Positions 16,539 through 57,800 of a DNA stretch of 64,000 nucleotides are shown here, piece after piece (position 1 is the first letter of the stretch; each line of letters opens with the position of its first letter). Below the pieces are notes generated by a model. It saw nothing but the letters and a program-made list of their open reading frames with translations, made no database searches and was not told where the DNA came from. The DNA is taken from the NCBI RefSeq assembly GCF_002995495.1, contig NZ_PVZV01000008.1, forward strand, positions 248,001 through 312,000, given 5' to 3'. The position numbers and the translations under genes are program-made. This DNA comes from Actinocorallia populi (GTDB lineage: Bacteria > Actinomycetota > Actinomycetes > Streptosporangiales > Streptosporangiaceae).

Positions 16539-18332
16539 ATGGCAGCCGTGCACCCGGTCGTCGCCCGCGTCACCGAGCGGATCGCCGCGCGCAGCGCCGG
16601 CGGGCGCGCCGCGTACCTCGCCCGCGTGGCCGAGGCCAGGTCCGAGGGGCCCGCGCGCGGAGCGCTCGGCTGCGGCAACCTCGCCCACGGCTTCGCCGCC
16701 TGCGGCCCGGAGGAGAAGGCGGCGCTGCGCGGGAACGCCCGGCCGAACATCGCGATCGTCACCTCCTACAACGACATGCTCTCGGCGCACCAGCCGTTCC
16801 GGACCTACCCCGAGCGGCTGAAGAAGGCGATCCTGCTGGCGGGCGGCGTCGCCCAGGTGGCGGGCGGAGTCCCGGCCATGTGCGACGGCATCACCCAGGG
16901 CCGCGCCGGCATGGACCTGTCGCTGTTCAGCCGGGACGTGGTGGCCATGTCCACCGCGATCGCGCTGGCCCACGACATGTTCGACGGCGCCCTCATGCTC
17001 GGCGTCTGCGACAAGATCGTGCCCGGCCTCGTCATCGGGGCGCTGGCGTTCGGGCAGCTCCCCACGGTGCTGGTGCCCGCGGGGCCGATGCGCTCGGGCC
17101 TGCCCAACGCCGAGAAGAGCCGCATCCGCAAGCTGCACGCCATCGGCGAGGTCGGCCGCGACGAGCTGCTGGACGCCGAGGCGAAGTCCTACCACTCGCC
17201 CGGCACCTGCACCTTCTACGGCACCGCCAACAGCAACCAGATGCTGATGGAGGTCATGGGCCTGCACCTGCCCGGCGCCAGCTTCGTGGCGCCGGACACG
17301 AAGCTGCGCGAGGCGCTCACCGACGAGGCGGGCCGCCGCGTCGTGCAGGGCGCGCCGCCGATCGCCGAGGTCCTGGACGAGAAGGCCTTCGTCAACGGCG
17401 TGGTGGCCCTGCTGGCCACCGGCGGCTCCACCAACCACACGCTGCACCTGCCCGCGATGGCCGCCGCCGCCGGCATCGAGCTGACCTGGGACGACTTCGC
17501 CGAGCTGTCGTCGGTCACCCCGCTGCTCACCCGGATCTACCCCAACGGCGCCGCCGACGTGAACCACTTCCACGCCGCGGGCGGCACCGGTTTCCTCATC
17601 GGCGAGCTGCTGGAGGCCGGGCTGCTGCACGAGGACGTCAGAACGGTCACCGGCGAGGGCCTGGACGCCTACACCACGGTGCCCGTCCTCGCCGAGACCG
17701 AGGGCCTGCTGTGGAAGCCCGCCCGCGAGACCTCCGGCGACGAGGACGTGCTGCGCCCCGCCGGGAACCCGTTCTCCGCCGACGGCGGCCTGCGCATGCT
17801 CGAGGGCAACCTCGGCCGCGGCGTCGTCAAGATCTCGGCGGTCCTGCCCGAGCACCGGGTGATCGAGGCGCCCGCCCGGGTCTTCGCCACCCAGGAGCAG
17901 GTCTTCGCCGCCTTCGAGGCCGGCGAGCTCGACCGCGACGTGGTGGTCGTGCTGCGCTACCAGGGCCCGCAGGCCACCGGCATGCCGGAGCTGCACAAGC
18001 TGACCCCGCCGCTGTCGGTGCTGCAGGACCGCGGCTTCAAGGTCGCGCTGGTCACCGACGGGCGGCTGTCCGGGGCGTCCGGCACGGTCCCCGCCGCCAT
18101 CCACCTGACGCCCGAGGCCGCCTCGGGCGGCCCGCTGGCCCGCATCCAGGACGGCGACGTCGTGCGCTTCGACGCCGACTCCGGCAAGCTCGAAGCGCTC
18201 GCCGACCTCGCCGCCCGCCCCGGCACGGGCGCGGCTCCCTCCCGCCAGGAGTGGAGCGGCACCGGCCGCGACCTCTTCGCCGCCTTCCGCGCCTCGGTGG
18301 GCCCGGCGGAACGAGGCGCCTCGGTCTTCTAG
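16539..18332 (+). CDS. edd: 6-phosphogluconate dehydratase (Entner-Doudoroff)
   Basis: A 597-residue IlvD/Edd-family iron-sulfur dehydratase that turns 6-phosphogluconate into 2-keto-3-deoxy-6-phosphogluconate. Recognisable Edd segments include [26 protein letters not shown] (cluster cysteine), [11 protein letters not shown], and the C-terminal [17 protein letters not shown]. Length matches Edd (about 600) better than IlvD (about 560-615 with different motifs), and the downstream eda confirms the pathway. ATG 16539 follows GGGAG at suitable distance. Glucose-6-phosphate dehydrogenase is not in the window. Confidence 0.95.
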
Positions 18333-18336
18333 CCCC

Positions 18337-18392
18337 CGTCGTCACCAGACGACGACTGCAGACTTCTCGAACGGCGCCGCTCCGGCGGCGCC
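18337..18392 (+). terminator. Two hairpins downstream of edd
   Basis: Hairpin one pairs CGTCGTC (18337-18343) with GACGACG (18348-18354) around ACCA. Hairpin two pairs GGCGCCGC (18373-18380) with GCGGCGCC (18385-18392) around TCCG. They begin four bases after the edd stop and precede the repeat array; they could terminate or attenuate edd transcription before eda. Confidence 0.5.
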
Positions 18393-18402
18393 CCGAGACG
18401 AG

Positions 18403-18940
18403 ACTTCCCCGCGGGTCCGGCGACGGCGGAGGGGCCGGACCCGGCCCGTGGGGAATCGACTTCCCGCGGAGCCGTGGCCGGAGGAGGGGCCGCGCCCGGC
18501 TCCGCGGGAGACCGTTCTCCCGTGGTTCCAGGCCGGCGGAGGGGCCGAGCCTGGAACCACGGGGACTGTTCTCCCGCGGCCCGATGACGGCGGAGGGGCC
18601 GAAACCGGTCCGCGGGGAATCGACTTCCCGCGTTGCCGGGTCGGCGGAAGGCCGTGCCCGGTTCCGCGGGGGATTGTTTTCCTGCGGGCCCGGTGACGGC
18701 GGAGGGGCCGGAGCCGGTCCGCGGGGATGTTTTCCGTGGTACCGGGGCGGCGGGGGCCGTGCCCGGTCCGCGGGGATGTTTCCCGTGGTGTCGGGGCGGC
18801 GGAGGGGCCGCGCCGGTTCCACGGGGACTGTTCTCCCGCGGGGTCGTGGCCGGAGGAGGGGCCGCGCCCGGCTTCGCGGGAACCGCCTCCTCGCGGAGGC
18901 CGGCCGTGGCGGAGGGGCCGCGGCCGGCCTGCGCGGGGGA
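18403..18940. repeat. Ten tandem ~54-bp hairpin repeats between edd and eda
   Basis: Ten degenerate units fill most of the 634-bp gap. Each holds a core GGCGGAGGGGCCG (or a close variant) flanked by arms of the form CCCGCGG...CCGCGGG. Core 3' ends fall at 18437, 18492, 18547, 18601, 18654, 18710, 18759, 18810, 18864 and 18920, giving periods of 49-56 bases. Unit 3 has a perfect 15-bp stem (18519-18533 with 18549-18563); unit 2 has 12 bp. Units 3 and 8 use GTGG with CCAC where unit 2 uses GCGG with CCGC, and unit 7 keeps a G-U pair, so the stems co-vary. Periods that are not multiples of three argue against coding. No gene is seen here. Confidence 0.9.
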
Positions 18941-18966
18941 CCGCCGTGCGACCCGAGGAATGGAAC

Positions 18967-19602
18967 ATGCGGACCCTGGACCTGATGAAGCTCGCCCCCG
19001 TGGTGCCGGTCGTGGTGCTCGACGACGCCGCCAAGGCGGTACCGCTGGCCCGGGCGCTGGTCGCCGGCGGCCTGCCGGTGATCGAGGTGACCCTGCGCAC
19101 CGAGGCGGCCCTGGAGGGCATCCGCCGGATCGCCGCCGAGGTGCCCGGCGCCGTGGTGGGCGCCGGCACCGTCGTGGCCCCCGGCCAGGTCGAGCAGGCC
19201 GCCGAGGCGGGCTCCCGCTTCCTGGTCAGCCCCGGCTGCACCGACACCCTGCGCGCCGCGATGACCGGCAGCGGCCTGCCGTTCCTGCCCGGCGTCTCCA
19301 CCGCGTCGGAGGCCATGGCCCTGCTGGAGCACGGCATCACCGAACTGAAGTTCTTCCCCGCCAAGCCCGCGGGCGGAGCCCCCTACCTGAGGTCCCTCGC
19401 CGGGCCGCTGCCCGGCCTGTCCTTCTGCCCCACCGGCGGCATCACCCTGCAGACGGCGCCCGACTTCCTGGCGCTGCCCAACGTGCCCTGCGTGGGCGGC
19501 ACCTGGCTCACCCCCGCCGACGCCGTCGCCTCGGGCGACTGGGCGCGGATCGAGAAGCTCGCGGCCGAGGCCGCCGCCCTGGGCGGCCCCGTGGCGGCCT
19601 GA
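18967..19602 (+). CDS. eda: 2-keto-3-deoxy-6-phosphogluconate aldolase
   Basis: A 211-residue class I aldolase that splits KDPG into pyruvate and glyceraldehyde 3-phosphate, completing the Entner-Doudoroff pathway begun by edd. The Schiff-base lysine is Lys128 in [12 protein letters not shown], and the catalytic glutamate is Glu40 in IEVTLRT. GAGTVV and CPTGGI are typical. ATG 18967 is chosen because it follows a GAGG element and matches the family start; the frame stays open through the upstream repeat array but that part is not protein-like. Confidence 0.94.
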
Positions 19603-21466: not shown

Positions 21467-21546
21467 TACCCATGGGTAACTTGATATCAAGACAAATCCT
21501 GGATACCTTGACGTCAAGAGAAATCCGGCCGAAGTTAGGCTTACCT
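21467..21546 (+). promoter_or_regulatory. Palindrome-rich aconitase promoter region
   Basis: The 361-bp gap between PadR 2 and acnA holds three perfect 12-bp palindromes: TACCCATGGGTA (21467-21478), CTTGATATCAAG (21480-21491) and CTTGACGTCAAG (21507-21518). The last two share the frame CTTGA..TCAAG, 27 bases apart, and resemble MarR-family sites; MarR-family TamR controls aconitase in Streptomyces coelicolor. TTAGGCTTACCT (21535-21546) resembles half of an IdeR/DmdR iron box. The rest of the gap, to 21716, shows only a strong ribosome-binding site (GGAGGAGGAGGA). Confidence 0.6.
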
Positions 21547-54850: not shown

Positions 54851-57800
54851 ATGGTGTTCCGCCGCCTGCTCGACACCGCCTCACGGGCGCTGCCGTCGTC
54901 CGCCGCCGCGCGCCCGGAAAGGCGGATCCGCCTCCTGCCGGGCCGGGCCGAGATCGCGGTCCGCGGCGCCCACCTGCCCGGTTCGCACGAGATGGCCGCC
55001 CATCTGGAGTCGGCGCTGTCCCGGCTCGAAGGCGTGCGCCGGGTGGAGGTCAACGCCGTGCTGGGCCTGGCCGTGGTCCTCCTCGACGAGGACGCCGCGG
55101 TGATGGCCGACGACCTGCACGAGGTGATCGAGGACGCCGAGACCCGCTACGGGTGGGAGCGGGAGGACTTCTGCGACACCGCGCGCCCGGGGGACGACCA
55201 GGCGATGGCGGTGGAGGCGCTGCTGGCCGGGACCGCCTTCCTGGGCTCCGGCCTGGCTCTGGCGGGGAAGATGGTCCGGGTCCCGGCGCTGCCGCCGATC
55301 GTGCCGACCCTCGTGGCGCTGGCCGACACCACGCCCCAGATCCGCGCGCTGCTGGACCGGGCGGCCGGACGCCGCGTCATCGACACGCTGGCCACCGCGG
55401 GCGGACTGCTCACCCAGTCCATGGCCCAGCAGCCGGTCGGGCTGGCCGTGGAGGGGGTGCAGCGGCTGGTCCGGCTCGCCGAGGCCTACACCCACTGGCG
55501 GGTGTGGAACCAGGGGTTCGAGGCGCTCGACGCGCTGCCCGGCGCCCAGCGGACCCCGGCGCACGCGCGTGCGCCGCGCCCGGCCCCGCTGCCGCCCGGT
55601 CCCGTGGAGCGGCTCGCCGGGCGCATGCCGTACGGGCTGGTCCTGGTGGGCGGGGTGTGGGCGGCGACCCGCAGCCCGCTCCGCGGCCAGGGCGCGCTGC
55701 ACTCGCTGGTGCCCAAGGCCGCGTTCGCCTGCCGCGACGCGTTCGCCGTGCAGTTCACCCGGATCGCCGCGGGCCGGGGCATCCCGGTCGCCGACCCGCG
55801 CGCCCTGCGCAGGCTGGACCGCGTGGACACCGTCGTCATCGACGACGACGCCCTGCGCACCGGCGAGTACGTCCTGGAAGAGATCATCCCCCTGACCGAC
55901 GGCACAAACGGCATGAAAGGCGCAAACGGAACGGGCAGCGCAGGCGGTGCGGGCGGTGCAGGTGGTGCGGGCGGCGCAAATGGCGCGGGTGGCGTGGAAG
56001 GCGCAAGCGGCGCGGGTGGCTCGGGTGGCTCGGGTGCGGGCGGCGCGGACGGTGCGGGTGGCGTGGAAGGCGCAAACGGCGCGGGCGGTGCTGGCGGTGT
56101 GGATCTGTCGGTTCTGGACGCGAGGGCTCGTGCGCTGGTGGACCGGCGGCGTCCCCGGGCCAGGCGGAGCCGGGACGGGTGGTCGGTGGCGCCGTTGCGC
56201 GCCGCCGAGGTGCGGGAGCTGGCCGACGAGCGGGCCAGGGCGTGCGCGGCCCGCGGCAGCGTGCTGGTCGCCCTGCGCGAGAGGGGGCGCACGGTCGCGG
56301 TCCTGGCGCTGGCCGAGGAGCTCGACCCCTTCGGGGAGGTGTTCGTCGCGGCGGCCCGCCGGATCGGCGAGGTCCACCTGGCCGGGCGCGGGCGCGGCCT
56401 GGAGCGGCGGCTGCCGGTGGACGGGCGGCTGCCCGGCTCCGACCTGACCGCCGTGGTCCGCGGCCTCCAGGCCGAGGGCCGGGGGGTGATGCTGCTCTCC
56501 CGGCACCACGGCGAGGCGCTGGCCGCCGCCGACGTGGGGGTGGGCCTGCCCGACAGCGAGGGCGTCCCGCCGTGGGGCGCGCACCTGTTCTGCCGCCTGG
56601 ACGGGGCCTGCCTGGTCACCGACGCGGTCATGGCGGCCCGCGACGCCGCCCGGCGCGGGGTGCGGATCGCGTCGATCGGCTGCGCCACCGCGGCGACCGC
56701 GGCGCTGACCGTCCGGCAGGGCGCCTCCTTCGCCCGCGCCCGGCTGATCATGGACGGCGCCCGCCTGATCGCGCTGGGCACCGGGATCTGGACGGCGGCC
56801 CAGCTCTCGCGGCGGCCCGCGCCCCGCCCCCTGGACCGCACGCCCTGGCACGCCTGGCCGGTCGGCGCCGTCCTGGAGCGGCTGGGCTCGTCCCGGGCGG
56901 GGCTGCCCGAGCCCGAGGCCGAGCGGCGGCGGGCCGAGGCCGTCGCGGAGGAGCCGCCCGAGGAGGCGGGCCTGGTGCGGCGCACCCTCCAGGAGCTCGA
57001 CAACCCGCTCACCCCGGCCCTGGCGACCGGCGCGAGCGTCTCGGCGGTGGTCGGCTCCGTGGTGGACGCCGGGCTGATCGGCGTGGTGCTCGGGATCAGC
57101 GCGGTCATGTCGGGCGTCCAGCGGGTCGCCGCCGACCGCGCCGTGCGCAGGCTGGTGGAGCAGGTCTCGGTCCCGGTGCGGCTGCGCAGGCCGGACGGGG
57201 AGCAGACGGCCGCCGCCGAACGGCTCGTCCCCGGGGACGTGATCATGCTGGCGGCCGGGGACATGGTCCCGGCGGACTGCCGGGTGGTGTGGGCGCAGGG
57301 CCTGGAGGCCGACGAGGCGAGCCTCACCGGGGAGTCGCAGCTGGTCGCCAAGGCGGCCGAGCCGACGATGGCCGGGGCGGTGGCCGACCGGTCCTCCATG
57401 CTCTACCGGGGTACCAACGTCGCCGCGGGCGAGGCGATCGGGGTGGTGGTGGCCACCGGCGCGGGCACCGAGATCGACCGGACCCTCACCCTGGTCACCG
57501 GCACCTCCCGTCCGGGCGGGGTGGAGACCCGGCTGGAGCAGCTCACCAAGGTGACGCTGCCCACCTCGCTGGGCGCGGGCGGCCTGCTGCTGGGCGCGGG
57601 GCTGCTGCGCGGCAGGGGGCTGAGCGCGGTGCTGAACTCGGCGATCGGCCTGGCCGTGGCGGCGGTGCCCGAGGGGCTGCCGTTCGTGGCCACGGCCGCC
57701 GAACTGGCGACGGCGCGGCGCCTGTCCCGCCAGGGGGCGCTGGTCCGCAGCCCCGTCACGATCGAGGTGCTCGGCCGGGTCGACGTGTTGTGCTTCGACA

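Follow-up and report, generated by a model that had tools for sequence, protein, structure and literature searches.

The question raised by this locus is what a row of ten tandem hairpins is doing between two Entner-Doudoroff genes. In the window, the whole stretch of 64,000 nucleotides of Actinocorallia populi DNA that was analysed and in which positions are counted here, edd (6-phosphogluconate dehydratase; 16539..18332, plus strand; PF00920 and PF24877) is followed by eda (KDPG aldolase; 18967..19602, plus strand; PF01081), and reading of the sequence places ten hairpins at 18403-18941, within the gap from the edd stop (18332) to the eda start (18967). The answer tentatively favoured here, at a probability of about 0.45, is that the array may be a structured-RNA element in the intercistronic space of the edd-eda mRNA, a factor-tuned insulator of edd from eda expression. 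The earlier suggestion, made in a sequence-only reading of this DNA, that the array could by its position separate the expression of the two genes is supported as far as position goes; the array lies in the edd-eda gap in all three species compared. New in this analysis are the finding of the array in the two congeners, a strand test based on G.U pairs, the constancy of the loop and the observation that the array stands in place of glk.

Anatomy and covariation of the array

Tandem Repeats Finder returns a single array of ~54-bp units at 18408-18945, and the reading of the sequence gives the ten tandem hairpin repeats claimed earlier. Loop-to-loop spacing is 50-56, and the units share a common plan in which a free-sequence outer stem leads into a short GGC/GCC stem and then into the hexaloop GGAGGG. 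In many units the two stems are set apart by a bulge or by an internal loop, 2x2 or of similar size, and the stems have about 15-22 Watson-Crick pairs. The loop GGAGGG crowns units 1 (18403..18457, loop at 18428-18433), 3 (18512..18566, with a perfect 15-bp outer stem), 4 (18567..18620), 6 (18675..18728), 8 (18777..18827) and 10 (18883..18941); units 2 (18458..18511) and 9 (18828..18882) are apically GGAGGAGGGG and read CGGAGGAGGGGCCG, and units 5 (18621..18674) and 7 (18729..18776) have the deviant loops GGAAG and GGGG, all on the plus strand. An exact 13-mer, GGCGGAGGGGCCG, is present in six of the ten units, its variants being GGAGGAGGGGCCG in units 2 and 9, GGCGGAAGGCCG in unit 5 and GGCGGGGGCCG in unit 7. 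The array is preceded by a short perfect hairpin, GGCGCCGC TCCG GCGGCGCC (18373..18392, plus strand; from sequence and fold), which lacks the GGAGGG loop.

The arms vary and remain paired, so that the array consists of conserved, covarying hairpins whose stems diverge between units and species. The compensating arms pointed out earlier (GTGG with CCAC in units 3 and 8, GCGG with CCGC in unit 2) read exactly so in the sequence, and in an alignment of five gap-free units (A3) double-sided change affects 15 of 19 stem pairs. Paired cells make up 94.7% in these units; shuffles reach 72.0% (0/500 as high as the units) and slid registers no more than 49.5%. The 94.7% is biased towards structure by the choice of units without bulges; the double changes do not hang only on how the units were picked. 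Units of all three species are recovered by a covariance model built from the same five. The covariation modelling proposed by the sequence-only reading has found pairing kept across units and species far above the shuffled and slid controls, and an ordinary GC simple repeat without conserved pairing is not borne out.

The array also folds much more stably than dinucleotide shuffles. On the plus strand it has a z score of -9.75 relative to them, none of 100 being equally stable, and the corresponding value in a second species of the genus is -8.74. The minus strand, with a z of -9.30, comes so near that folding energy alone cannot tell the strand. A coding repeat was rejected, as the mixed spacings shift the frame from unit to unit and the stop-free frame relative to edd differs between species; the earlier argument from periods not divisible by three therefore stands in its conclusion, coding being disfavoured by mixed frames, and fails in its letter, the spacings including 54. 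CRISPR was likewise excluded, since the arms vary and identical repeats with unique spacers are absent.

Distribution of the array and the missing glk

The same kind of array occupies the same edd-eda place in all three genomes of the genus (3/3), with ten units in A. populi, five in one congener (G001) and three in the other (G002); the edd-eda intervals of both congeners were found by a DNA search using the window array, and between species the array DNA is otherwise poorly alignable, at 70-77% over short stretches. Only a few bases separate the edd stop from the first hairpin in the congeners, which leaves no space for a promoter between them, and a scan of the array region gave no sigma-70-type promoter match. 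In all three species about 30-50 bases lie between the last hairpin and the eda start, and in each a Shine-Dalgarno sequence belonging to eda stands just 5' of its ATG.

Within its genome the array is solitary. Core matches across the 8.25 Mb number 10 forward and 2 reverse, six of them in the array, against 17 for a reversed-pattern control, and in each congener the array is the sole cluster in a covariance search; a dispersed repeat is excluded by there being one array per genome and by the lack of core enrichment over the reversed control. Matches of the array DNA query elsewhere in G001 proved to be coding or unrelated GC-rich DNA. Among 299 genomes of the family, array matches in the covariance search were limited to the genus. 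Weak covariance matches outside the locus mostly lacked the loop or resembled parts of genes. The covariance-model search suggested earlier has accordingly yielded copies in both congeners and no array in other genera of these 299 genomes. Apart from the three congeners, a triple-core pattern, with part of its matches folded, gave only simple repeats or chance matches in the 299 family genomes, 347 genomes of the order and viral_contigs, and no further array among the matches listed for genome_contigs.

In two further genera the family-wide covariance search also returned a few single hairpins that have the tip of the array and follow other genes. One genus, g65, has a hairpin tipped by GGCGGAGGGGCC after a gene end at what is apparently the same place in four genomes (L235, L237, L238, L239). 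Two near-identical single hairpins with the tip GGAGGAGGGG and common flanks, at two places in the G002 genome (L216, 1501-1545, and L219), appear mobile or duplicated.

The place of the array is one that relatives assign to a gene. Among 67 loci outside the genus, 63 have the glucokinase gene glk (PF02685) between edd and eda, mostly with short spaces, and where these relatives keep glk the three congeners have the array. No similarity to glk was detected in the three congener genomes by a search that had no internal positive control, and on this ground a glk remnant was rejected as the origin of the array. The four glk-less loci of other genera are also without an array, so that loss of glk alone does not bring one. 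In one glk-less gap (L346, G089), at ~1440-1630 in the edd-eda direction, lies a long inverted repeat, GGCCCTGTTTTTTGGAT...ATCCAAAAAACAGGGCC, of miniature-transposon-like appearance.

Strand, loop and competing explanations

Departures from Watson-Crick pairing indicate which strand matters. In the aligned arms, G.U pairs of the plus strand outnumber A.C mismatches by 28 to 6 (24:4 in the window), in arm alignments that scored the wobble of both strands equally; the binomial p of 2e-4 is optimistic, because the units are related by duplication and hence not independent. The bias could possibly also be mimicked if C-to-T changes were in excess on one of the strands; a T excess was not seen at third positions of edd. 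Given the G.U bias on the gene strand, selection probably acts on the structure in the edd-eda mRNA, the RNA from the strand carrying both genes.

The loop is nearly constant. GGAGGG is intact in 16 of the 18 units across the three species, the exceptions being units 5 and 7 of the window, and the loops are unpaired with a probability of 0.66-1.0 in the full-length ensemble. Fourfold-degenerate edd sites are only 64-70% identical between species (50% being expected by composition), so that recent common ancestry by itself accounts poorly for the constant core. In a census covering 1.66 Mb of the 8.25 Mb genome, none of 240 strong hairpins outside the array had a GGAGGG hexaloop; this census admits no bulges and at its threshold detects just 2 of the 10 array units. 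The loop GGAGG is complementary to the anti-Shine-Dalgarno CCTCC, and a 16S end bearing CCTCC is present in the genus. In every unit the 15 bases after GGAGG are free of a start codon, so the loops are not a set of hidden start sites, and leader peptides are ruled out on the same evidence. Beyond a barrier role, the constant loop suggests a factor that reads it.

Taken in this sense, the insulator would work through a very stable row of hairpins separating the expression of edd and eda, either by stopping 3'-to-5' decay of edd mRNA or by lowering read-through into eda, or both, as exonuclease barrier and/or attenuator. A trans-acting factor, a protein or the 3' end of 16S rRNA, would bind the constant GGAGGG loop and tune the separation, and the array may have taken the place of glk, which elsewhere is usually the close link between edd and eda. 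The basis for this reading is position, structure, covariation, loop constancy, an RNA-fitting strand bias, occurrence in 3/3 genomes and the absence of detectable glk. Against it, a plain barrier would have no need of a constant loop, the loop motif is lost in 2 of the 10 window units, and the species number only three.

It is conceivable, though on balance somewhat doubtful, that these are plain clustered hairpins, a tandem intrinsic terminator or protector of the edd 3' end with no loop-reading factor, in which the loop is constant through unit copying. Units within one genome are indeed tandem copies, other genera have single hairpins with the GGCGGAGGGGCC tip after genes of unrelated kinds (L235-L239), and bacterial terminators have been reported as clustered hairpins, often without a U tract (PMC8355165). 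Such a view has to accommodate a loop held constant in three species despite diverged stems and fourfold sites, the lack of a consistent U tract, and the fact that a terminator needs fewer than three to ten hairpins. A multivalent RNA element is unlikely, but not negligibly so: GGAGGG loops would bind a putative novel actinomycete RNA-binding protein or the ribosomal anti-Shine-Dalgarno, with an effect in cis on eda and, once cut from the operon mRNA, perhaps also in trans as a sponge. Distinctly less probable is a ribosome-related role, in which exposed GGAGG loops pair with the 16S anti-Shine-Dalgarno as a 30S standby or decoy array controlling eda translation; retention of a mostly unpaired GGAGG in 16 of 18 units and the CCTCC-bearing 16S end agree with it, and the missing start codons, the Shine-Dalgarno sequence that eda itself possesses, the loss of the motif in units 5 and 7 and the fact that GGAGG is also merely a purine-rich loop speak against it.

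Arms can stay paired through template switching at inverted repeats, and the array could be a neutral scar at the site of the lost glk, an expanding quasi-palindrome under no RNA selection, spread by tandem duplication and held complementary by hairpin-templated repair during replication. The range of unit number from 3 to 10 and the position at the site of the missing gene fit such an origin, which we consider quite improbable, as it leaves the cross-species constant loop and the 28:6 strand excess of G.U unexplained and no such array occurs in the four glk-less loci elsewhere. The sequence-only reading had also allowed for a DNA element. Tandem protein-binding or cruciform sites would accord with a centre, GCGGAGGGGC, that is the sole near-constant sequence; this option has lost most of its ground, and is very improbable, given irregular spacing (46-59) without helical phasing, arms that change freely in sequence and are nonetheless paired, and mismatches favouring the G.U of one strand.

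Relation to known systems and other repeats

Searches of Rfam 15 with the arrays of the three species gave no family at gathering threshold, just sub-threshold microRNA matches, and no description of such an element was found among open-licence papers, in keeping with the earlier statement that no described element has this form. Like REP/BIME, the array is a cluster of palindromes in intercistronic space; REPs, however, are dispersed in many copies with a conserved stem sequence, whereas the array sits at one locus in 8.25 Mb and has variable stems (15/19 pairs double-changed) and a constant loop. Sponge RNAs of the CsrB/RsmZ type also expose GGA in the loops of a hairpin row (GGAGGG in the array), but the array lies inside a predicted operon, has another loop context and belongs to a genome in which, with positive controls working, no CsrA gene (PF02599) was found. 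Tandem hairpins with six-base loops of the ANTAR-responsive type are common in actinomycetes, and their targets are hairpin pairs whose hexaloops have A at position 1 and G at position 4. The array shares the tandem arrangement, the six-base loops and the G at position 4, and differs in having G at position 1 and 3 to 10 hairpins.

The canonical intrinsic terminator has a U tract directly after a GC stem, of which the array shows two weak tails, both at one unit. The clustered intrinsic terminators mentioned above resemble the array in their adjacent hairpins after a stop codon and in needing no U tract, yet they consist mostly of two short hairpins with stems of 2-10 bp and no common loop, as opposed to up to ten hairpins with a shared one (PMC8355165). 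Protection of an upstream cistron by intercistronic hairpins is documented in E. coli for malE-malF and other differential-decay operons (PMC5927463). The array likewise places stable structure between adjacent same-strand genes of a predicted operon, positioned to part the fates of the two genes, and departs from the E. coli stem-loops in its 3-10 tandem units, near-invariant GGAGGG, free stems and confinement to one actinomycete genus. By analogy, we infer that the array works like known intercistronic hairpins, in whose descriptions the tandem, free-stem, fixed-hexaloop form does not appear.

Post-transcriptional control in actinomycetes is poorly known, and the A. populi genome lacks CsrA. 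Should a factor read the loop, the locus would offer a natural array, compact in size, in which to look for a new actinomycete RNA-binding activity. Copy number (10, 5, 3) could serve as a tuning knob between two Entner-Doudoroff enzymes. The locus would also present a clear case of an operon gene, glk, that was lost and whose place went to a structured RNA parting its former neighbours.

Other repeats were encountered along the way. Three Streptomyces contigs (L083, from 7258; L133, from 7108; L122, minus strand) contain a tandem intergenic hairpin-type repeat, CCGCTCCTCAA(A/G)CGCCGGAGGGGCTGG, which differs in carrying GGAGGGGC in the 3' arm and not in the loop. Elsewhere in the window, a 27-base A+T-rich direct repeat, TGGATAACTTGACATCAAGACAAATCC, occurs in two copies at 21473-21526 between PadR-type and aconitase-like genes, and an array with repeats of 9/27/69 bases at 55932-56097 is glycine-codon-like and probably coding.
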